From Ectothiorhodospira haloalkaliphila ATCC 51935 (GTDB lineage: Bacteria; Pseudomonadota; Gammaproteobacteria; Ectothiorhodospirales; Ectothiorhodospiraceae), in assembly GCF_000633935.1 (NCBI RefSeq), contig NZ_KK214998.1:1130010-1194009 (forward strand): a stretch of 64,000 nt of DNA, given 5' to 3'. Positions 417 to 15,179 of the stretch are shown here, piece by piece. The position numbers were made by a program, and so were the translations under genes. The first letter of the stretch is position 1; each line of letters opens with the position of its first letter. Under the pieces are notes generated by a model, which did not search any database, was not told the DNA's origin, and saw only the letters and a list, made by a program, of their open reading frames with translations.

Positions 417-556
417 GTCAGGCTCAGATCGTCTCCACATCAAAAGCCACGATCTGCCGCCTTTCGCGGGAGAATTCCACACCGATCAGGTGAATGGGCT
501 TGCCGGTGGCGCGGTATTTATCGGCGTAGCCTCTGGCCTTGATCTGTTCCAGGGCA
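417..556 (-). pseudogene. C-terminal fragment of an AAA-ATPase/PD-(D/E)XK gene
   Basis: Reverse-strand reading gives the tail IGVEFSRERRQIVAFDVE and a stop, nearly identical to the last ~45 residues of the two complete ATPase genes at 4904-6472 and 6637-8199. Homology stops abruptly near 556, where HigB-like sequence begins on the opposite strand. Together with the 5' fragment at 1040-1099 this is what remains of one ATPase copy whose middle is missing. Confidence 0.85.
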
Positions 557-766: not shown

Positions 767-1048
767 ATGGCCCTGTTCAACCCACCACATCCCGGCGAAA
801 TTTTGAGAGAGGACGTCATCGAGGCCTTGGGCTTGACCGTAAGCGACGCCGCCAAGCGACTGGGGCTGACCCGAGTACAGCTTTCGCGCGTACTCAATGA
901 GCGTGCCGGCATTAGCCCCGACCTGGCCGTGCGTCTTGAGCGCGCCGGCATCAGTACCGCGAGACAGTGGATGGCTCTGCAGTCGTCTTATAAACTGTGG
1001 CAAGCCGAGCAACGCTCGCAACCTGATGTCGAACGCCTAAAGGTCTGA
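767..1048 (+). CDS. higA: HigA-family antitoxin (HTH-XRE)
   Basis: This 93-residue protein begins NPPHPGEILREDVIEALGLT, the signature opening of HigA antitoxins. It carries a Cro/C1-type helix-turn-helix at about residues 24-60 (VSDAAKRLGLTRVQLSRVLNE). HigA proteins bind and neutralise HigB and repress the operon. It lies 7 bases after the damaged toxin, the standard toxin-first order. Its last codons and stop (1040-1048) coincide with the start of an ATPase fragment, so the extreme C-terminus may have been trimmed. With a defective toxin it may now act only as an orphan regulator. Confidence 0.88.
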   Translation: MALFNPPHPGEILREDVIEALGLTVSDAAKRLGLTRVQLSRVLNERAGISPDLAVRLERAGISTARQWMALQSSYKLWQAEQRSQPDVERLKV

Positions 1049-1099
1049 ATCCCGATGGGGAGTCTGAGGCGCTGATGGTTCGCCATGCCTGGGCCTCCG
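1040..1099 (-). pseudogene. N-terminal fragment of the AAA-ATPase gene
   Basis: On the reverse strand, 1040-1075 matches the first codons of the ATPase genes (the LRLPIGIQT segment). The bases up to about 1099 match their upstream leader (gcctccggg). It is collinear with the C-terminal fragment at 417-556, so higBA sits where the ATPase interior should be. Confidence 0.75.
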
Positions 1100-1219
1100 G
1101 GGACAAGTATCATGCCGATGGCAGTCTATCATGGTCCCGGAGGTGGACCACTTCAGTGCTGTGCTTGGGTGGGAGCAGCCTGTGCCTGTCGTCGCCCTCC
1201 TGCTTCGTGGCATTTAAGG

Positions 1220-3415: not shown

Positions 3416-3931
3416 TATAAACTCTCCTGAGACTGCGTCCATCAGAGGACAATTATTTATTTTTATAAGCCCAAAAGCTCGTTTGAATCATACAGACTTA
3501 AACCAGAGATCAAAGCACGCAGGAATAAGCAATACCTGCTTTTTGCGCTCAGAATCCAGGCATCAGTCACGTATGCACTTTCAGAACCGCCTGCACCCAC
3601 TTATTACGGATGACACCAAGGACGACCATCGCAAAATAATGTGAAGCTTTAGGAGGCAGCCCTAAAAGCGGCAGATACGATATCACGTTGATTTTCCTGA
3701 AAACGACCGCTTGTCGGGTTTTTTGGTCAGCTAACGGTTTGACGATGTAGGGATTTTCCTACAACGGATCGCCAAGGCAATGGTTTTATCACGCCACCAC
3801 GCCAGACCGGTACGGCACTGCTGAACTCCATGTCCAGCTTGGGACGCTCCCTGTCCCCATCGGCAAAGATGGCCGAGTTAAAATCACTAATAACTGGGCA
3901 CCAGCCAACTCGGGCTCATGAGCTGCTCATG
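3416..3931. other. Intergenic region carrying a conserved palindrome
   Basis: About 516 bases with no convincing gene. It is AT-richer than the surroundings and includes an AT-rich stretch just upstream of the beta-barrel gene, where its promoter should lie. The palindrome at 3746-3763 is the only element shared with other loci. Forward frames over the lipoprotein end are shadows. Confidence 0.6.
3746..3763 (-). promoter_or_regulatory. TGTAGG-N6-CCTACA palindrome, copy 1
   Basis: Read towards the beta-barrel gene it is TGTAGGAAAATCCCTACA, a perfect 6+6 inverted repeat with an A-rich spacer. It lies 331 bases upstream of that gene's GTG. The architecture equals the GacA box (TGTAAG-N6-CTTACA) with one changed base per arm, which points to a LuxR/FixJ-type response regulator. 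That is inference. Confidence 0.6.
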
Positions 3932-4766: not shown

Positions 4767-4784
4767 TGTAGGGATTTTCCTACA
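4767..4784 (-). promoter_or_regulatory. TGTAGG-N6-CCTACA palindrome, copy 2
   Basis: Identical to copy 1 (TGTAGGAAAATCCCTACA read towards the gene), 223 bases upstream of the lipoprotein start at 4543. Identity over all 18 bases between two otherwise different leaders argues for function. Confidence 0.62.
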
Positions 4785-4903: not shown

Positions 4904-6472
4904 TCAGATCCTCTCCACATCAAAAGCCACGATCTGCCGCTGTTCGCGGGAGAATTCCACACCGATCAGGTGAATGGGCTTGCCGGTGGCGCGGCATTTA
5001 TCGGCATAGCCTCTGGCCTTGATCTGTTCCAGGGCCTTGCCTTCGGGCAGTTGCTCCACCACCTTGAACTCGAACAGGTAGATATGCCCGGCAAAGTCCA
5101 CAGCCATGTCCACCTTGCCGTGGTGGCTGGAGTCTTCCACCGTGACCTGGACCCCCAGGGCCGCAAAATGGCTGTAAAACACACTGGCATAATGCCCTTC
5201 GTATTGGGCGATGGGGTTGTTGCGGTACCAATCGTGGGGCAGACCGGCGTACAGGGCTTTCATGTGGGCCTCAAGGCCTGCCATGTCAGCGGCCTTCAGC
5301 AGGCGGGGCAAGCGGATGACCACGTCATCGAAGACGGCATGAGTCACACCCAGCGCCGGTAGCAGAGCCTCGTTGAGGCTGATCTCCACCTCCTGGTTGG
5401 GCAGGCCCAGTTTGTAGAGTGGCCGGTTCGGGACTTCTTCGTGGATGTCCTTCAAGGTGAGGTAGCCGGTCTGGAACAGCAGGGCATCGGTGGAGATATC
5501 CTCCACATCGAAGCGGCTGAGCAGTGCCGGTCGGCTGTGCCAGGCGGTGAGCGCAGGAGTGAAGACGCCGCGTTCCTTGAGGATATCCACCAGAAAGGTG
5601 GGGGTCGCGCTCTCGAACCAGTAAGGTCCGAACTGACGATTTTGCAAGAGCAGCAGCACATCGAAAGGGTTATAGACGGAGGTCACCTCCTGCCCACCCC
5701 AGCGGTAACCGTTGTACCACTGCCGGATGGCATCGCGATCCAGGCCAGGCAGCTCGGGGGCAAACACCGTATCCAGATCATCATCGGTGTAGCCGCAGAG
5801 GGTGGTGAACTCGGGTAGCAGGGTGATGTCTCGCAGGTTGTTCAGCCCCGAGAACAGACTGACCTTGCTGAACTTGGATACGCCCGTGAGCAGCACCAGG
5901 TGCAGGTGCGGATCGGCATCCTTGAGCACGCTGTAGAGGTTCTTCAGGCCTTCGCGCAGCTCACGGGCGCGCTCGGGGTCGCGAATGTTGTCCAGGATGG
6001 GCTTGTCGTATTCATCGATCAGCAGCACCGCCGGCTTGCCCGTTTCCTGGTAAGCGAGTTCCAGCAGGTCCGAAAATTCACCGGGAATATCCGCCTTGGG
6101 CGTGGCAGCCAGCGTGAAACGCTCCCGATGCCTGCGCAGCTGATGGCGAATGCGCTCATCCAGCTCATCTCGGCTGCGCATCACGCCGCTGCCAAAACTC
6201 AGGCGGATCACCGGATGGACGGTCTGCCAGTCCCAGCGGTCGTGGATGTAAAGCCCCTCAAAGAGTGACCGACGGCCCTCGAACAGGCAGCGCAGGGTAT
6301 CCAGCAGCAGGCTCTTGCCAAAGCGTCGAGGGCGGGAGAGGAAGTAGTACTTGTTCTGATGGACCAGACGCTCAATGACGGGGGTCTTGTCCACGTAGTA
6401 GTAGCCCCCCTCGCGGATCTCGGAGAAGGTTTGAATCCCGATGGGGAGTCTGAGGCGCTGATCAGTAGCCAT
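4904..6472 (-). CDS. AAA-ATPase-like / PD-(D/E)XK nuclease (DUF1703), copy A
   Basis: A 522-residue protein of the AAA-ATPase_like plus DUF1703 architecture. Residues 1-45 carry the family start (GGYYYVDKT). RPRRFGKSLLLDTLR near residue 48 is the P-loop and AVLLIDEYDKPIL near residue 145 the Walker B segment. The C-terminal nuclease-like fold shows HGKVDMAVDFAGHIYLFEFK, fitting the D...E-x-K core. The cellular role of this family is not established; it is common in large paralogous sets in bacteria rich in mobile elements. It is the first of two tandem copies about 1.73 kb apart, nearly identical at both ends and divergent between residues ~300 and 420. Confidence 0.88.
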   Translation of the reverse strand: MATDQRLRLPIGIQTFSEIREGGYYYVDKTPVIERLVHQNKYYFLSRPRRFGKSLLLDTLRCLFEGRRSLFEGLYIHDRWDWQTVHPVIRLSFGSGVMRSRDELDERIRHQLRRHRERFTLAATPKADIPGEFSDLLELAYQETGKPAVLLIDEYDKPILDNIRDPERARELREGLKNLYSVLKDADPHLHLVLLTGVSKFSKVSLFSGLNNLRDITLLPEFTTLCGYTDDDLDTVFAPELPGLDRDAIRQWYNGYRWGGQEVTSVYNPFDVLLLLQNRQFGPYWFESATPTFLVDILKERGVFTPALTAWHSRPALLSRFDVEDISTDALLFQTGYLTLKDIHEEVPNRPLYKLGLPNQEVEISLNEALLPALGVTHAVFDDVVIRLPRLLKAADMAGLEAHMKALYAGLPHDWYRNNPIAQYEGHYASVFYSHFAALGVQVTVEDSSHHGKVDMAVDFAGHIYLFEFKVVEQLPEGKALEQIKARGYADKCRATGKPIHLIGVEFSREQRQIVAFDVERI

Positions 6473-6636
6473 GCAGGCCTCCAGAGTGAAGCGTCGTACG
6501 GGCGGGAGTTTATCACAGCCGCCGGGAAGGGCCGCTAATGCTCATGCTTCACGGCGGGTGCCCCCCCCGATCATGAAAGATACGATCCAGGTCCCTCATG
6601 GGGTGGGTACCTGGCCAGCCAGCTTGCATAGGGAGT

Positions 6637-8199
6637 TCAGATCGTCTCCACATCAAAAGCCACGATCTGCCGCCTTTCGCGGGAGAATTCCACACCGATC
6701 AGGTGAATGGGCTTGCCAGTGGCGCGGTATTTGTCGGCGTAGCCTTTGGCCTGGATCTGCGCCAGGGCCTTGCCTTCGGGCAGTTGCTCCACCACCTTGA
6801 ATTCGAACAGGTAGATGTGCCCGGCAAAGTCCACCGCCATGTCCACCTTGCCATGGTGGCTGGAATCTTCCACCGTGATCTGCCCCCCCAGGGCCGCAAA
6901 GTGACTGTAAAACACACTGGCATAATGCCCTTCGTATTGGGCGATGGGGTTGTTGCGGTACCAGTCGTGAGGCAGGCCCGCATAGAGGGCCTTGAGGTGG
7001 CTTTCCAGCCCGGCCAGGTCATGGTTGCGCAGGTGGGTAAACAGGGTTCTGCGCTCCCGAGGTGCGTTTTCCAGGCCCAGCGAGGGCAGCAGGGCAAGGT
7101 TGAGACTGGTTTCCACTTCCTGGTTGGGAAAGCCCAGGGTGTACTGGCGGTACCCCAGCATGGGTTCTTCCAATGTCTTGATGGTCAGGTAGCCGGCCTG
7201 GAACAGCAGGGCGTCGGTACTGATGTTGTCCACGTCGAACTGGCTGAGCAGTTCGTATTCCGTTTCCCAATGGTCCAGAGACGGCGTGTAGATACCCCGT
7301 TGCCTGAGCATATCCACCAGAAAGGTGGGAGTCGCGCTCTCGAACCAGTAGGGGCCGAATTGGCGATTCTGGAGCAACAGCAGGACGTCGAAGGGGTTAT
7401 AAACGGAGGTCACCTCCTGCCCACCCCAGCGGTAACCGTTGTACCACTGCCGGATGGCATCGCGATCCAGGCCAGGCAGCTCGGGGGCAAACACCGTATC
7501 GAGATCTTCATCGGTGTAGCCGCAAAGGGTGGTGTAGTCGGGTAACAGGGTGATGTCGCGCAGGTTGTTCAGCCCCGAGAACAGGCTGACCTTGCTGAAC
7601 TTGGAGACACCGGTGAGCAGCACCAGGTGCAGGTACGGATCGGCGTCCTTGAGCACGCTGTAGAGGTTCTTCAGGCCTTCGCGCAGCTCGCGGGCGCGCT
7701 CGGGATCCCGAATGTTGTCCAGGATGGGCTTGTCGTATTCGTCGATCAGCAGCACCACCGGCTTGCCCGTTTCCTGGTGAGCAAGTTCCAGCAGGTCCGA
7801 AAATTCACCGGGAATATCCGCCCTGGGCGTGGCAGCCAGCGTGAAACGCTCGCGTTGCCTGCGCAGCTGATGGCGAATGCGCTCGTCCAGCTCATCGCGG
7901 CTGCGCATCACGCCGCTGCCAAAACTCAGACGAATCACCGGATGGACGGTCTGCCAGTCCCAGCGGTCGTGGATGTAAAGCCCCTCAAAGAGTGACCGAC
8001 GGCCCTCGAACAGGCAGCGCAGGGTGTCCAGCAGCAGGCTCTTGCCGAAGCGTCGGGGGCGGGAGAGGAAGTAGTACTTGTTCTGGTGGACCAGGCGCTC
8101 GATGACGGGCGTCTTGTCCACGTAGTAATAGCCCCCCTCGCGGATCTCGGAGAAGGTCTGAATCCCGATGGGGAGTCTGAGGCGCTGATCAGTAGCCAT
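6637..8199 (-). CDS. AAA-ATPase-like / PD-(D/E)XK nuclease (DUF1703), copy B
   Basis: About 520 residues from the ATG at 8199, the same start context as copy A. A longer frame to 8370 only adds a remnant of an unrelated Rpn gene. P-loop (RPRRFGKSLLLD), Walker B (VVLLIDEYDKPIL) and the nuclease motif (GKVDMAVDF...FEFK) are intact. Copies A and B agree closely through residue ~300 and again from ~420 to the end. Between these points (around 7040-7300 here) they differ much more, which suggests a specificity region or past gene conversion. The 3' flank (GGCCAGCCAGCTT) recurs at 9220, marking a third lost copy. Confidence 0.88.
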   Translation of the reverse strand: MATDQRLRLPIGIQTFSEIREGGYYYVDKTPVIERLVHQNKYYFLSRPRRFGKSLLLDTLRCLFEGRRSLFEGLYIHDRWDWQTVHPVIRLSFGSGVMRSRDELDERIRHQLRRQRERFTLAATPRADIPGEFSDLLELAHQETGKPVVLLIDEYDKPILDNIRDPERARELREGLKNLYSVLKDADPYLHLVLLTGVSKFSKVSLFSGLNNLRDITLLPDYTTLCGYTDEDLDTVFAPELPGLDRDAIRQWYNGYRWGGQEVTSVYNPFDVLLLLQNRQFGPYWFESATPTFLVDMLRQRGIYTPSLDHWETEYELLSQFDVDNISTDALLFQAGYLTIKTLEEPMLGYRQYTLGFPNQEVETSLNLALLPSLGLENAPRERRTLFTHLRNHDLAGLESHLKALYAGLPHDWYRNNPIAQYEGHYASVFYSHFAALGGQITVEDSSHHGKVDMAVDFAGHIYLFEFKVVEQLPEGKALAQIQAKGYADKYRATGKPIHLIGVEFSRERRQIVAFDVETI

Positions 8200-8289
8200 G
8201 CAGGCCTCCGGGAGTGAAGCGTCATGCTCGTGAGAGTTTATCACAGCCGCCGGGAAGGATTTGCACCTCCAATCTCTCGCCAGCTTATC

Positions 8290-8536: not shown

Positions 8537-8875
8537 GTGAGCCATGCTGTTGAATTCATTGAAACCCCGACCTTCACCCGGCAGATCCAGACGATGGCCA
8601 CGGATGATGAGCTCAAGGAACTTCAGCGTATCCTCATCGCCCAACCGGACAAAGGTGATCTGATTCAGGGGACCGGTGGACTTCGCAAGATCCGCATGGC
8701 GCTGGGGCATCAAGGTAAGCGCGGCGGCGCTCGGGTCATCTATTTTCTAGCCACCGCAGAGGTCATCTACCTGATACTGGCCTACCCCAAGAGCATCAAA
8801 GACAGCCTGACGCCCTCCGAAAAGGCCGCACTGAAAACACTGACCCACCATTTGAAAGGGGAAGTTTCCAAATGA
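8537..8875 (+). CDS. RelE/HigB-type toxin
   Basis: About 112 residues from a GTG at 8537; the frame extends upstream to 8333 but covers the promoter and Rpn remnant there. It opens VEFIETPTFTRQI and contains QGTGGLRKIRMALGHQGKRGGARVIYF, the conserved core of the RelE-like toxins paired with NadS-type antitoxins. These cleave mRNA on the ribosome. The C-terminal LILAYPKSIKDSLTPSEKAALKTL is also typical. The stop overlaps the antitoxin start by four bases, indicating translational coupling. No damage is visible. Confidence 0.87.
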   Translation: MSHAVEFIETPTFTRQIQTMATDDELKELQRILIAQPDKGDLIQGTGGLRKIRMALGHQGKRGGARVIYFLATAEVIYLILAYPKSIKDSLTPSEKAALKTLTHHLKGEVSK

Positions 8876-9156
8876 GCATCTTCGACGAACTCCAGACATC
8901 GTTGCAGGAAGCGGTCGATATCAAGCAGGGCAAGGCTAAGGCAAGCCGCGCCACCCGCCATGAGATAGCGGATGTCAAGGCGATCCGCGCCCAGTTGCAC
9001 GTTTCCCAAGTAGAGTTTGCCCAGGCCATGGGGACAAGTGTCGATACGGTCAAGAGCTGGGAGGCCAAGCGCCGCAACCCCACCGGCCTAGCCGCAAAGG
9101 TACTGGCCACCATCCAGGACAACCCAGCTTTCTACAACGAGCTTGCCTCCCACTGA
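8872..9156 (+). CDS. nadS: NadS-family HTH antitoxin
   Basis: This 94-residue protein starts MSIFDELQTSLQEAVDIKQG and carries an XRE helix-turn-helix at about residues 40-75 (IRAQLHVSQVEFAQAMGTSVDTVKSWE). The motif KSWEAKRRNPTG is diagnostic of this antitoxin group. It overlaps the toxin by ATGA. It should bind the toxin and the repeated operator at 8465-8495. A second, broken toxin/antitoxin junction nearly identical to this one lies at 13182-13241. Confidence 0.9.
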   Translation: MSIFDELQTSLQEAVDIKQGKAKASRATRHEIADVKAIRAQLHVSQVEFAQAMGTSVDTVKSWEAKRRNPTGLAAKVLATIQDNPAFYNELASH

Positions 9157-9252: not shown

Positions 9253-9463
9253 TCAGATCGTCTCCACATCAAACGCCACGATCTGCCGCCTTTCGCGGGA
9301 GAACTCCACGCCGATCAGGTTCGATGTGCTCGCCTCAGTATCCACGTAAACCGAGCCACCGCCCAGACAGAACCCAATAAAGGTATCCGCACTCGCCGAA
9401 GCAGGCAGTGCGATTGCGGCAGCGAGAAGAGCCGACTTGCAAATGGTTTTTCTTGAACTTCAT
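9253..9463 (-). pseudogene. Signal-peptide gene fused to an ATPase tail, with a frameshift
   Basis: An ATG at 9463 follows AAGGAAAGTGAG. After a run of five A (9447-9451 on this strand) the frame must shift by one base to read KTICKSALLAAAIALPASASA, an excellent signal peptide. It continues DTFIGFCLGGGSVYVDTEAST and then without interruption LIGVEFSRERRQIVAFDV to the ATPase stop at 9253. The junction at about 9318 is in frame. With four A instead of five the product would be a 69-residue exported chimera. Either a sequencing or replication slip or a decayed gene is possible. Confidence 0.6.
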
Positions 9464-9906
9464 CTCACTTTCCTTTTGGCTTTTTTATTTTTTTCCATGG
9501 GAGCAGTCAACAGCAAAAGGAAAAACGGGGCCAGAAGATACGCCACCAGGCGGTCATGCAGGAATCAACACATCCCGCCATAGACTCCACTTCGAAGCCA
9601 AGGGCCGCCCCACACGGGGGTATCCGAGACCTGCCACCAGGGATGCCCAATCCCTTGCCCAGGCCGTGAGCGGGGGGGGGTGAAGACGCCGCGATCCTTG
9701 GGAATCTCCACCAGAAAGGTGGGTGCGGCACACCTGAGTGGACGCCATGATAAACTCCTGCCAACAAAAGCCTGCTGCTGGACACCCTGCGCCGCCTTTT
9801 CGGAGCTCGCGAGACCCTGTTTCACCGGCACACCGATTCATTTGATCGGGTTGGACTTCTCCAGCCAGCAACGGCAAATCGTGGCATTTGAGGTGGAGAC
9901 AACCCA
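9464..9906. pseudogene. Debris of further ATPase copies
   Basis: No intact gene is seen. At about 9680-9725 the reverse strand matches the middle of the ATPase genes (the TFLVEIPKDRGVFTP region). At about 9766-9805 the forward strand encodes KSLLLDTLRRLFG, the end of the P-loop segment. At about 9828-9910 it encodes TPIHLIGLDFSSQQRQIVAF, the ATPase C-terminus, in a different frame. The two forward pieces are a deletion derivative of a diverged ATPase gene. The remaining ~200 bases (9464-9680) show nothing recognisable. Confidence 0.65.
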
Positions 9907-10575
9907 ATGAGACTCACCATCTTCCAGCGATATTGGATACAGGGATTCATGAAAGGAAATCTCATCGCTTATACCGGAATAATATTGAAATACACAAGAG
10001 AGCACTCAGTCACTGATACAGATGTCGCAGAACTGATCATGATGCCTTTATCCTTTGTCAATTCAGTAAAAAGCGCATACGACAGCGGCATCACCGATCC
10101 TGAGGACATCGTCGACCAAATGGATCTTGACGCAGAGGATCTTGCAGAGTGGAAAAAAGCTTCGGAGCGTCGCGGCATTGAAGCCTACATCGAATCAACT
10201 CATAAAGATAAATTTGGCAAACTGCCTGAGTGGGTACTGGAAAAAATCAGGACCGCCCCGGAAGAAGAGCTGCAAAAATGGCTCGATGGATCAACGGATC
10301 ACAGACAACTGGAAGAAATATTTCTGGGGCGTGACCTGTGCGAACAGGTACTCCAATTACCCCCAGACATTTGGGACTCCGATGCCTTCCTCAAGGGAAT
10401 GAGAAGGACGCTACGCATACAGCTCCAGGAAAAGTTCAATGACATGCCGCTCTGGGCTGACGAAGCCTTACATCAAAAGGACCATGACCAACTCGTCCAA
10501 TTGAGTCGCGACATATTACGTTCCAGCACTCTGGAAGAGCTGCTGCTGAGAGAGGACAAAATGGAGCGGCAGTAG
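9907..10575 (+). CDS. Hypothetical protein with two DUF4351-like segments
   Basis: A 222-residue protein, rich in charged residues, without signal or membrane segments. Two segments resemble the DUF4351-type tail of Rpn proteins: KFGKLPEWVLEKIRTAPEEELQKWLD (about residues 100-125) and KFNDMPLWADEALHQKDHDQL (about residues 178-198), each followed by a helical LEEIFL or LEELLL. In the complete Rpn gene of this window the same element reads KFGELPDWADERLAAATDAQLDDW. It therefore looks like a stand-alone pair of these tails, perhaps the remains of a larger protein. Its start overlaps the stop of the ATPase remnant. It is less GC-rich than its neighbours. Confidence 0.6.
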   Translation: MRLTIFQRYWIQGFMKGNLIAYTGIILKYTREHSVTDTDVAELIMMPLSFVNSVKSAYDSGITDPEDIVDQMDLDAEDLAEWKKASERRGIEAYIESTHKDKFGKLPEWVLEKIRTAPEEELQKWLDGSTDHRQLEEIFLGRDLCEQVLQLPPDIWDSDAFLKGMRRTLRIQLQEKFNDMPLWADEALHQKDHDQLVQLSRDILRSSTLEELLLREDKMERQ

Positions 10576-13241: not shown

Positions 13242-13347
13242 TCGGCCCTGCGTTCAAGGCCTCGAGCGCATCCTTGATGACCTCGGCGTAGGTCTCAAGC
13301 TTCAGCGGCCCAAACTGCTCAGGGGGAGAGACGAAGGAAAGACAGAA

Positions 13348-14337
13348 TCAGTGCTTGCCCAGCAGGGACTCCAGGCTGTCTGCCTCCATAATCCGCAACA
13401 CCCAATCATCAAGCTGGGCATCCGTGGCAGCGGCCAGGCGTTCGTCTGCCCAGTCAGGCAACTCTCCAAATTTCAGGGCTAATTGCTTGCGCAGGGTGCC
13501 TTCCACACCCTGATGGCGACCTCGCTCAAGCCCCCGCTCAAGCCCCTGCTGAAGCGCTTTCTCTCGCTCAACGCGTTCAATCGTGTTAACGTAAGGCATT
13601 TTCTTCTCCTCCTGTAGGGCGTAGACCGCCTGCACAAACTCCGGTTCCAGCTCTCTGGGCAGCTGGATCATCCAGTCGATGATCCTGAACAGCTGCACGA
13701 TCTGCTCGCGGCTATAGCCCCGTTCGTACAGCAGCCGAACCAGGGCGATCTTGACCTCCTTGCGCGTGGCACCATCCTTGACACGCTTGGCCTTGATCTG
13801 CGCCATCACCACCAGGGCAAAGACATTGTCGCTGACCTCCAGATCCGCCCAGCGCTCTTCCCAGTCAATCAACTTGGCCATGGGAAACGTGAACGACAGC
13901 TTGCAGCCCCAGCGCTCATACTGGAAGGCCGAGGGCCGAAAGCTCTCGCGGGTGTCCGCCAGCACCGCCAGACTCACCACATCCACCCCGTACCGATCCC
14001 GCAAGCGGTACTGGTAAGTGTACATCCGCTGCGCAAATCCTTCCTCCGGCTCGCCCTGGACCTCCACATGAATAAGCACCCAGGTCTCGCTGCCATCCCG
14101 GGCATACACCTGGATCAGCTTGTCCGCATGGCGTCGACCCGTGTTGGCATCCGCCGTGATCTGCTGCAGTTCCTTGTCCATGGGGTTGTAACCCCGGGGC
14201 CAGTCCACCTCTCCGTGGATTGCCGGGAACAGCAACTGCGTGAATTCCTGGAAGTAGTAATCCAGGGCCTCCTTCCAGGGGCTGTCGTGGTCCGTGGGCC
14301 TGTCGGCATCTTGCCTGTCGGCATCTTGTTCGGTCAT
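13348..14337 (-). CDS. Rpn-like PD-(D/E)XK nuclease with DUF4351-type tail
   Basis: About 329 residues from the ATG at 14337, which follows AAAGGAGTGCAC; a longer frame overlaps the neighbouring pseudogene and is rejected. The nuclease-like core is ADKLIQVYARDGSETW then VLIHVEVQGE near residues 75-95, the D...E-x-Q pattern of Rpn family recombination-promoting nucleases. A low-complexity LQQGLERGLERG linker follows. The tail KFGELPDWADERLAAATDAQLDDW is DUF4351-like. Rpn proteins are linked to RecA-independent recombination of short stretches. The gene appears intact, while two relatives in the window are broken. Confidence 0.85.
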   Translation of the reverse strand: MTEQDADRQDADRPTDHDSPWKEALDYYFQEFTQLLFPAIHGEVDWPRGYNPMDKELQQITADANTGRRHADKLIQVYARDGSETWVLIHVEVQGEPEEGFAQRMYTYQYRLRDRYGVDVVSLAVLADTRESFRPSAFQYERWGCKLSFTFPMAKLIDWEERWADLEVSDNVFALVVMAQIKAKRVKDGATRKEVKIALVRLLYERGYSREQIVQLFRIIDWMIQLPRELEPEFVQAVYALQEEKKMPYVNTIERVEREKALQQGLERGLERGRHQGVEGTLRKQLALKFGELPDWADERLAAATDAQLDDWVLRIMEADSLESLLGKH

Positions 14338-14380
14338 GTGCACTCCTTTAGCAGCCTTTCGCTTTACCACGCCATATCCC

Positions 14381-15179
14381 GCTTGTTTCAAGTGGCCCTG
14401 CAGGATGGCCGCACTGCCTTCATCTACACCCTGATCGAGCACAAATCCTGGCCCGACATGGGGGCGCCCTTGCAACTGATGGGCTATCGCCACCGCATCT
14501 GGACCCGCTACGCCCAGGACAAACCGGAACGCCTGCGCGCGCTGCCACCCATCATCACCCTGCTGGTCTACCATGGCCGGACATCCTGGGATGTGCCCAC
14601 CCGGCTGATCGACTGCATTGATGCCGACGAGGATCTGCTTGAACTGCAACGCGATGGACGCTACACAGTCAAAGACCTCACAGGCAGTGCGCCAGTCTAC
14701 GAGGACTTCTCCGATCACCCTCTGCTGCGGGCAGGACTGGCGGCCCTGGCATGGGCCTTCGTCAAGCACTTTCAACCCGAGCAACTGGCCCGGTTACTGC
14801 AGGATTTACCCGATGAACACCCCCTCACCCGGCAGATATTGATTTACATCGTCCGGGTCCACACAATGACCGAAGATGAATTCAAGCAAGGGGTGGCCAT
14901 GGCCAAACCCCATCTCGAGGAGGCACTCACCATGTCGCTGGCTCAGGAATGGATGGATCGCGGCGAAGCCAAGGGCGTGCAGAAAGGCGAGGCCCAGATG
15001 CTCATCTGGCTATTGGAACAAAAATTTGGGTCACAAGCTCCCAAGGCCTATCAGGACTCTATCGAAAAGGCTGACGAACCCCATGTTGTTTCCCACCCCA
15101 GATCAAGGCTTGGTCGGCCCGTCTGCTCACCACCGACCGCATAGAGGACGTCTTCAAGGACACACCGCCCATGCATTGA
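14381..15179 (+). pseudogene. Rpn family nuclease, N-terminally truncated and frameshifted
   Basis: The forward frame begins abruptly with LFQVALQDGRTAFIYTLIEH, which corresponds to about residue 50 of Rpn (transposase_31) proteins. It continues LLVYHGRTSWDVP and VRVHTMTEDEF. Near 15080-15105 the reading frame must change from one phase to another to continue into WSARLLTTDRIEDVFKD and the stop at 15177-15179. The gene thus lacks its start and has one frameshift. Its missing 5' part abuts the divergent complete Rpn-like gene at 14337. Confidence 0.85.

Follow-up and report, generated by a model that had tools for sequence, protein, structure and literature searches.

Two tandem genes, copies A and B, were analysed together with their relatives in a 64,000-nucleotide stretch of the Ectothiorhodospira haloalkaliphila ATCC 51935 genome (contig NZ_KK214998.1, positions 1,130,010 to 1,194,009; hereafter the window). 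A and B are two of the eight full paralogues of a predicted AAA+ ATPase/PD-(D/E)XK nuclease in this genome of 3.45 Mb. We propose, with a probability of roughly 0.55, that they represent a family of predicted ATP-gated nucleases, in which a conserved frame carries two exchangeable specificity cassettes, referred to as blocks b1 and b2. In the two largest sets of copies, those of Ectothiorhodospira and of the distant gamma proteobacterium HdN1, comparison at the sequence level demonstrated both blocks, the re-pairing between them and, within block types, purifying selection. The genes and blocks of the window are as follows.

4904..6472, (-) strand: copy A, 522 aa, with an AAA-ATPase_like domain (residues 10-207) and a PDDEXK_9 nuclease domain (residues 423-515)
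5240..5578, (-) strand: b2 of A, residues 299-411, winged helix and helical linker, of a type common to other Ectothiorhodospira species
6038..6169, (-) strand: b1 of A, residues 102-145, two paired helices lying between strand 2 of the ATPase and the Walker B strand
6637..8199, (-) strand: copy B, 520 aa, same architecture as A and beginning at the same ATG
6973..7305, (-) strand: b2 of B, of another type than that of A
7765..7896, (-) strand: b1 of B, of the same type as that of A

Copy A matched PF09820 (E-value 7.1e-68, 228.8 bits; curated Pfam cut-off 26.1) and PF08011 (9.8e-21, 74.2 bits; cut-off 25.5), and copy B gave nearly the same values (1.5e-68 and 231 bits; 2.5e-20 and 72.8 bits). 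Both genes carry PF09820 followed by PF08011, each above its curated cut-off, which is the domain pair described as DUF1703 (Knizewski et al. 2007, PMC1913061), and these two were the only Pfam matches of A and B at E ≤0.001. Using motif definitions taken from the part of PMC1913061 drawn on here, the RPRRFGKS Walker A, DEYD Walker B and PD-(D/E)XK nuclease patterns were detected in all eight full copies of the genome.

The first-pass annotation of the window had described A and B as nearly identical at their ends and strongly different in the middle, and this was confirmed by identities of 97% in the N part, 55% in the middle and 93% in the C part. Even divergence along the alignment, named there as the contrary outcome, was not seen: a site-wise change-point fit placed a sharply bounded divergent block at A residues 299-411, with nucleotide divergence of 39% inside and 6% outside (log-likelihood ratio 102.6; highest value among 100 shuffles, 9.2). 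Synonymous and nonsynonymous divergence (dS and dN) were approximately 0.21-0.22 and 0.015 in the first 289 compared codons, 0.84 and 0.49 in the 103 codons of the middle, and approximately 0.23-0.24 and 0.033 in the last 113 codons. The resulting dN/dS was higher in the middle (0.57) than at the ends (0.07 and 0.15), as might be expected if the middle formed the core of recognition and were still being driven apart by positive (diversifying) selection. This ratio is nevertheless below 1, and dS jumps in the middle; since amino-acid selection alone would leave the synonymous sites of the middle as similar as those of the ends, the explanation had to be changed. In addition, the middle of A was 92-96% identical to that of five copies, one in each of five other Ectothiorhodospira genomes, at dS 0.35-0.69, dN 0.02-0.04 and dN/dS 0.03-0.10, the N part of A differing from the same five copies by dS 0.64-0.96. 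In the genome's other arrays, C and D, described below, the middle was also the least variable part. Ongoing positive selection on the middle is therefore not supported, given the rise in dS, the conservation of the A middle across species and the low dN/dS within types, and we regard it as highly improbable. Of the earlier proposal of a recognition region under diversifying selection, the first half survives, in that the middle behaves as an exchangeable block compatible with recognition, and the second half does not, since selection within the type is purifying.

Phylogenetic trees of the separate segments gave conflicting histories. In the N-part tree, A and B were sisters with a Shimodaira-Hasegawa-like approximate likelihood ratio test (SH-aLRT) support of 99, and in the C-part tree their support was just 89. 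In the middle tree, an A+B clade was rejected (p 1e-11), and A grouped among copies of other species. When A was held together with its middle relatives, the arrangement was rejected for the N part (p 0.0002) and, more weakly, for the C part (p 0.02), but was not rejected for the middle (p 0.66). Copies from Halomonas, Vreelandella, Halovibrio, Zobellella and Thiorhodovibrio were placed within the middle types of A and B (support 97 and 94). The affinities of the middle and the conflict between segment trees point to gene conversion of the ends around two older middle types. The simplest reading, supported by these trees, is that two older genes that differed in the middle underwent conversion, which would have homogenized their ends, in agreement with the 'gene conversion of the ends' that the first-pass annotation had offered as an alternative. 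The extent of homogenization varied among A/B-type pairs: in that of genome G009, the C parts were homogenized (dS 0.10) and the N parts were not (0.70), and in that of G007 neither end was (0.47 and 0.51).

The other six full copies of the genome, which went unnoticed in the first-pass annotation, form the arrays C1-C3 and D1-D3, giving eight copies in three arrays. In arrays C and D, conservation was highest in the middle (98-99% and 97-99%, respectively) and lowest in the ATPase part (85-94% and 74-85%). By change-point fitting, the divergent segment of C1/C2 was located at residues 102-145 (47% versus 4.7% nucleotide divergence), and that of D1/D3 at residues 59-192 (33% versus 4.6%). Because the arrays vary in different places, A/B in the middle and C1/C2 in the ATPase part, two blocks were defined: b1 from the C1/C2 change-point (residues 102-145) and b2 from the A/B change-point (residues 299-411). 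Among 35 full copies from nine Ectothiorhodospira genomes, b1 fell into 11 types and b2 into 6, of which 18 combinations were present, with four failures of the four-gamete test; a given b1 type was paired with various b2 types and was present in various genomes. The comparisons leave out copies shorter than 480 aa (at least five), copies at contig edges and fragments (for example in loci L050 and L060), the row L122, which contains a stop or an ambiguous letter, and one duplicate. In pairs differing in one block, the median dS of the block was several times that of the frame (1.80 versus 0.33 for b1, and 0.90 versus 0.24 for b2), indicating exchange and not amino-acid change alone. Within block types, the median dN/dS was 0.04-0.18 in Ectothiorhodospira and HdN1, including 0.10 for b2 of Ectothiorhodospira and 0.08 and 0.04 for b1 and b2, respectively, of HdN1.

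The two apparently exchangeable blocks were replicated in HdN1, a genome found via the loci of the genome scan and carrying 22 full copies, for which the block borders had been fixed beforehand. Mean identities along the gene were 87% in N1, 49% in b1, 88% in N2, 64% in b2 and 89% in C. One pair of copies was 99% identical in the frame and 100% in b2, but only 21% in b1; in a second pair, the frame was 98%, b1 91% and b2 54% identical. Among pairs with a frame identity of at least 90%, not counting those of intermediate values, 30 differed in b1 alone, 24 in b2 alone, 40 in both blocks and 12 in neither. The borders recurred when fitted pair by pair, near residues 96 and 155 for b1 (25 of the 30 pairs fitted) and near residues 299 and 397 for b2 (24/24 pairs). 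Distances in b1 and b2 were uncorrelated (r = -0.02, Mantel p 0.51), and those of the frame parts among themselves were correlated at 0.70-0.73. Four b1 types and four b2 types occurred in 11 of the 16 possible combinations (mean under random pairing 12.1, 5-95% range 10-14), with nine four-gamete failures. On the frame tree, the b1 type changed at least 7 times and the b2 type 10 times, where 3 changes would suffice. As in Ectothiorhodospira, the block of one-block pairs was far more diverged at synonymous sites than the frame (median dS 2.7 versus 0.7). The best matches outside HdN1 were 44-77% identical for b1, 55-79% for b2 and 80-85% for the frame.

Low identity in the same two regions was also observed in a metagenome-assembled genome (MAG) of Latescibacteria, in Vreelandella azerica and in Methylotuvimicrobium buryatense, with isolated clear cases, for example in M. 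buryatense (frame 90%, b1 29%, b2 88%). Free re-pairing is not established in these three genomes, in which copies are few or correlation is high.

A mosaic of this kind might also arise neutrally, if conversion homogenized the similar parts of paralogues and passed over b1 and b2 as fast-evolving segments too different to convert, without any role in recognition. The A/B pair, with its homogenized ends and unhomogenized middles, fits such a process, and the conserved motifs flanking the blocks could serve as recombination joints. Furthermore, b1 and most of b2 are the most variable parts across the family: among 80 copies from outside the genus, compared in 20-residue windows, both windows of b1 had an identity of 31%, and the five of b2 one of 36-46%, except for that at residues 321-340 (75%). 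Resistance to conversion alone, however, cannot re-pair b1 with b2, and the four-gamete failures (nine in HdN1, four in Ectothiorhodospira) record such re-pairing. The blocks also travel as conserved types across frames and species, at a median within-type dN/dS of 0.04-0.18 in these two sets, unlike loosely constrained sequence. We consider a purely neutral origin possible, at odds well short of even.

The protein structure was considered on an AlphaFold model of A (48 rows, predicted local distance difference test score 84; the model number is the A number minus 1). In this model, b1 would lie on a helix pair running from the second strand to the Walker B strand, and b2 would comprise helices, a winged-helix-type strand pair and further helices, followed by the nuclease. 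The best structural matches of model residues 5-367 were archaeal ATPases (2fna, Z 16.2; 2qen, Z 15.8), followed by NLR/CED-4 proteins (Z approximately 13) and the archaeal Orc proteins 2v1u, 2qby and 1w5t (Z 9.6-12.3). This modelled order of a P-loop domain followed by a winged helix is that of STAND ATPases, and the fold is shared with 2fna, 2qen, NLR proteins and CED-4. Unlike STAND ATPases, the family carries a PD-(D/E)XK nuclease after this module, and no repeat sensor was matched in Pfam, where the C-terminal region gave the nuclease match only and a divergent sensor is possible. In Foldseek alone, CED-4 was the single match with E up to 0.001, and no sequence relative was detected in PDB at E up to 1. 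The isolated b2 model matched mainly winged-helix proteins, weakly (Z up to 4.5), and gave no match in Foldseek. As a separate observation, the nuclease half (model residues 306-521; window 4904-5557) resembled the nuclease parts of Wolbachia CidB/CinB (Z 10.9-12.3, root-mean-square deviation 2.6-3.3), with the best CidB match at Z 12.3 and 2.6 A over 140 residues.

The similarity to Orc proteins raises the question of whether the two blocks read DNA in two parts, as in archaeal Orc1/Cdc6, with b1 at the site of the initiator-specific motif, b2 as the winged helix and the nuclease cutting. In the Orc1-2 protein of Saccharolobus, the motif (G127/L128) precedes the Walker B glutamate (E154) by 26-27 residues, and takes part, like the winged helix, in specific DNA binding (PMC9738581, in the part drawn on here). 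In A, b1 precedes the Walker B glutamate (E154) by 9-52 residues, a position that resembles that of this motif and that, together with the Z values of 9.6-12.3, supports such an arrangement. The centre of the winged helix (residues 321-340) is conserved rather than variable, however, and the matches of the isolated b2 model are weak. The mean charge per 100 aa over 150 sequences was -3.9 in b1 and -5.8 in the winged helix, similar to the frame (-5.5 in N2, -2.6 in C); this lack of a positive charge excess in b1 or the winged helix is a weak argument against DNA reading, and suggests that DNA is no more likely than a protein partner or trigger. Taken together, DNA reading by both blocks appears improbable.

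AAA+ and STAND folds are often ring-forming, and the blocks might accordingly act as assembly codes that prevent hetero-oligomers, each copy assembling with itself alone. The fold matches, and the fact that A/B and C1/C2 each differ in one block alone, are consistent with this possibility. Within one genome, however, C2 and C3 have both blocks in common, as do D2 and D3, and we consider assembly codes quite unlikely.

In the mechanism that we favour, the frame of ATPase core and nuclease would be conserved and would carry b1 and b2 as swappable parts. Recombination between paralogues would tend to homogenize the frame within arrays and to re-pair old, conserved b1 and b2 types. Binding of ATP by the ATPase and winged-helix (STAND/Orc-like) module may gate the C-terminal nuclease, and b1 and b2 may jointly form a specificity surface choosing the partner or trigger of each copy, so that each genome would hold a repertoire of nucleases of mixed specificities. 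HsdS of type I restriction works in a comparable way, its conserved frame taking two interchangeable parts for recognition and so yielding combinations. A and B are not members of that family, and neither matched an HsdS or target recognition domain in Pfam at E ≤0.001.

This arrangement extends previous descriptions of the family. The description of DUF1703, in the part of PMC1913061 consulted, has the same two domains, the unusual arginine-bearing Walker A motif and a small helical region in between, does not mention exchangeable blocks, and gives the nuclease and ATPase activities as predictions; here the in-between region appears to hold a winged helix and to be one of two shuffled blocks. 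In Cardinium cCpun, 25 DUF1703 paralogues with intragenic recombination detected by RDP4 have been reported, with recombination in midge Rickettsia as well (Siozios et al. 2019, PMC6387759). As far as the consulted part of that report extends, the Cardinium members have a mean identity of 39% and a predicted signal peptide in 10 of 25, with no apparent homogenization and no defined blocks; in the copies analysed here, the frame is homogenized and two blocks re-pair. In the family literature, consulted in part, no report of two exchangeable blocks was found, recombination being described only in PMC6387759. PF09820 is also listed for RdrA of RADAR and others in a review table (PMC10952713, the part drawn on here).

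Several observations weigh against this interpretation. In Ectothiorhodospira, the 18 combinations fall below the 24.2 expected by random pairing (5-95% range 22-27), indicating linkage, so that re-pairing is not free in this genus. In HdN1, the blocks retain some correlation with the frame (0.14-0.48; b1-N2 0.48, b1-N1 0.32, b2-C 0.32). The Latescibacteria MAG, with 13 copies, had no four-gamete failure, a b1-b2 correlation of 0.43 and a within-type dN/dS of 0.24, and copies were few in V. azerica (5) and M. buryatense (6). Divergent segments sometimes exceed the blocks, spanning residues 15-294 in D1/D2 and 59-192 in D1/D3, and 75-405 and 91-424 in the A/B-type pairs of G009 and G007, respectively. 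The thresholds for block types (70% and 75%) were of our own choosing, and dS values above approximately 1 are near saturation. That the blocks act as specificity surfaces is what we infer; no family member with a tested function was found in the consulted part of the literature, and A and B matched no PADLOC family at E ≤0.001.

The most likely use, in our view, would be a role against incoming DNA or phages. The defence system suggested in the first-pass annotation nevertheless gained no backing from PADLOC models of A or B, or from the mixed neighbouring genes. In the fetched loci, 140 open reading frames (ORFs) lie within 1.8 kb of copies, picked by length and perhaps including some that are no genes; 133 of these were scanned, with 7 from L069 and L070 left out. 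Among 79 PADLOC families matched, the 25 listed had at most two members each and included Cas12f-type, Csx1 and PD-Lambda-2, the two members of the Cas12f-type models being in keeping with two OrfB_IS605 members in Pfam. Among 114 Pfam families, the 25 listed had at most three members each and included polysaccharide, regulatory and toxin-antitoxin genes. A defence-island context was therefore set aside, the neighbours being mixed and the counts lacking a background set, and no enrichment is claimed. Family matches were present in nine of ten Ectothiorhodospira genomes, this one included, and in one (G013) of the 37 genomes listed from other genera of the same bacterial family. Relatives are scattered over many bacterial groups, and occur on 60 of 72,556 plasmid records and on 32 of 50,697 phage records, all of the latter with organism names starting 'Bacteriophage'.

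Around A and B, the window also holds remnants of lost copies, listed below; the footprints noted in the first pass at 417, 1040, 9253 and 9680-9910 proved real, with DNA matches at 424-555, 1040-1076, 9253-9320 and 9659-9900.

424..555, (-) strand: 3' end of a lost copy, 96% identical to A (1.9e-58)
1040..1146, (-) strand: 5' end and leader of a lost copy; 1040-1076 is 97% identical to A and 100% to B
9253..9320, (-) strand: 3' end of a lost copy, 91% identical to A and 96% to B
9659..9723, (-) strand: remnant of gene bases 871-933 (residues ~291-311)
9765..9802, (+) strand, opposite to A/B: remnant just past Walker A, gene bases 156-193
9823..9907, (+) strand, opposite to A/B: piece of the 3' end (match 9823-9900)

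The region at ~1040-1146 matched copies from other genomes, at their 5' ends and leaders, with 83-88% identity, and 9659-9907 consists of three scrambled pieces on both strands. The repeated 3' flank, cited earlier as a sign that the lost copies belonged to the same array, holds for B and the 9253 footprint (36/41 bases, the last two in the stop codon) and is weak for A and the 417 footprint.

A HigB toxin remnant (Pfam HigB-like, part of the ORF at 415-759) is fused to the 3' end remnant of the gutted copy, and with the HigA antitoxin gene (767-1048) it lies between the 3' and 5' ends of that copy (555-1048); the HigB/HigA module is 95-97% identical beside another copy in G005 (L049, 5037-5596). 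The interval separating the gutted copy from A contains a Mutator-family transposase gene (1273-2577). Two occurrences of a near-palindromic GTAGGGATTTTCCTAC motif lie at 3747-3762 and 4768-4783, and a RelE-like toxin and NadS antitoxin pair (8540-9156) adjoins B. Directly past the scrambled remnants, a 222-residue ORF (9907-10575) had no Pfam or NCBIfam match. In the other arrays, a YoeB-type toxin gene (L012, 9726-10073) and a ParE-type toxin gene with a helix-turn-helix gene (L013, 5613-6331) lie between copies. An Rpn-like gene near the A/B array (13347-14988) matched TIGR01784 below its cut-off, and a YhgA-like/Rpn gene above the Pfam cut-off lies at the end of array C (L013, 10541-11503); DNA pieces of the Rpn-like region of the window were found beside copies in G001, G007 and G008 (87-96% identity) and G009 (78%). 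In a DNA comparison of the A/B array with 12 loci (matches of at least 60 bases, up to 40 listed per locus, within 64 kb), the listed matches were confined to the copies, the leaders preceding them and short stretches such as NadS, HigBA and the Rpn-like region.

These results go beyond the earlier description in pointing to two exchangeable cassettes, not one variable middle, and offer a clear example from nature of a bacterial gene family shaped by gene conversion and the re-pairing of cassettes. Natural pairs differing in b1 or b2 alone (30 and 24 in HdN1, with frames at least 90% identical) make recognition by the blocks directly testable. More tentatively, as a suggestion that we hold with considerable doubt, the family may constitute a widespread, bipartite and combinatorial repertoire of ATP-gated nucleases, perhaps sensing phages or mobile elements, and thus a hitherto unrecognized innate-immune-like family.

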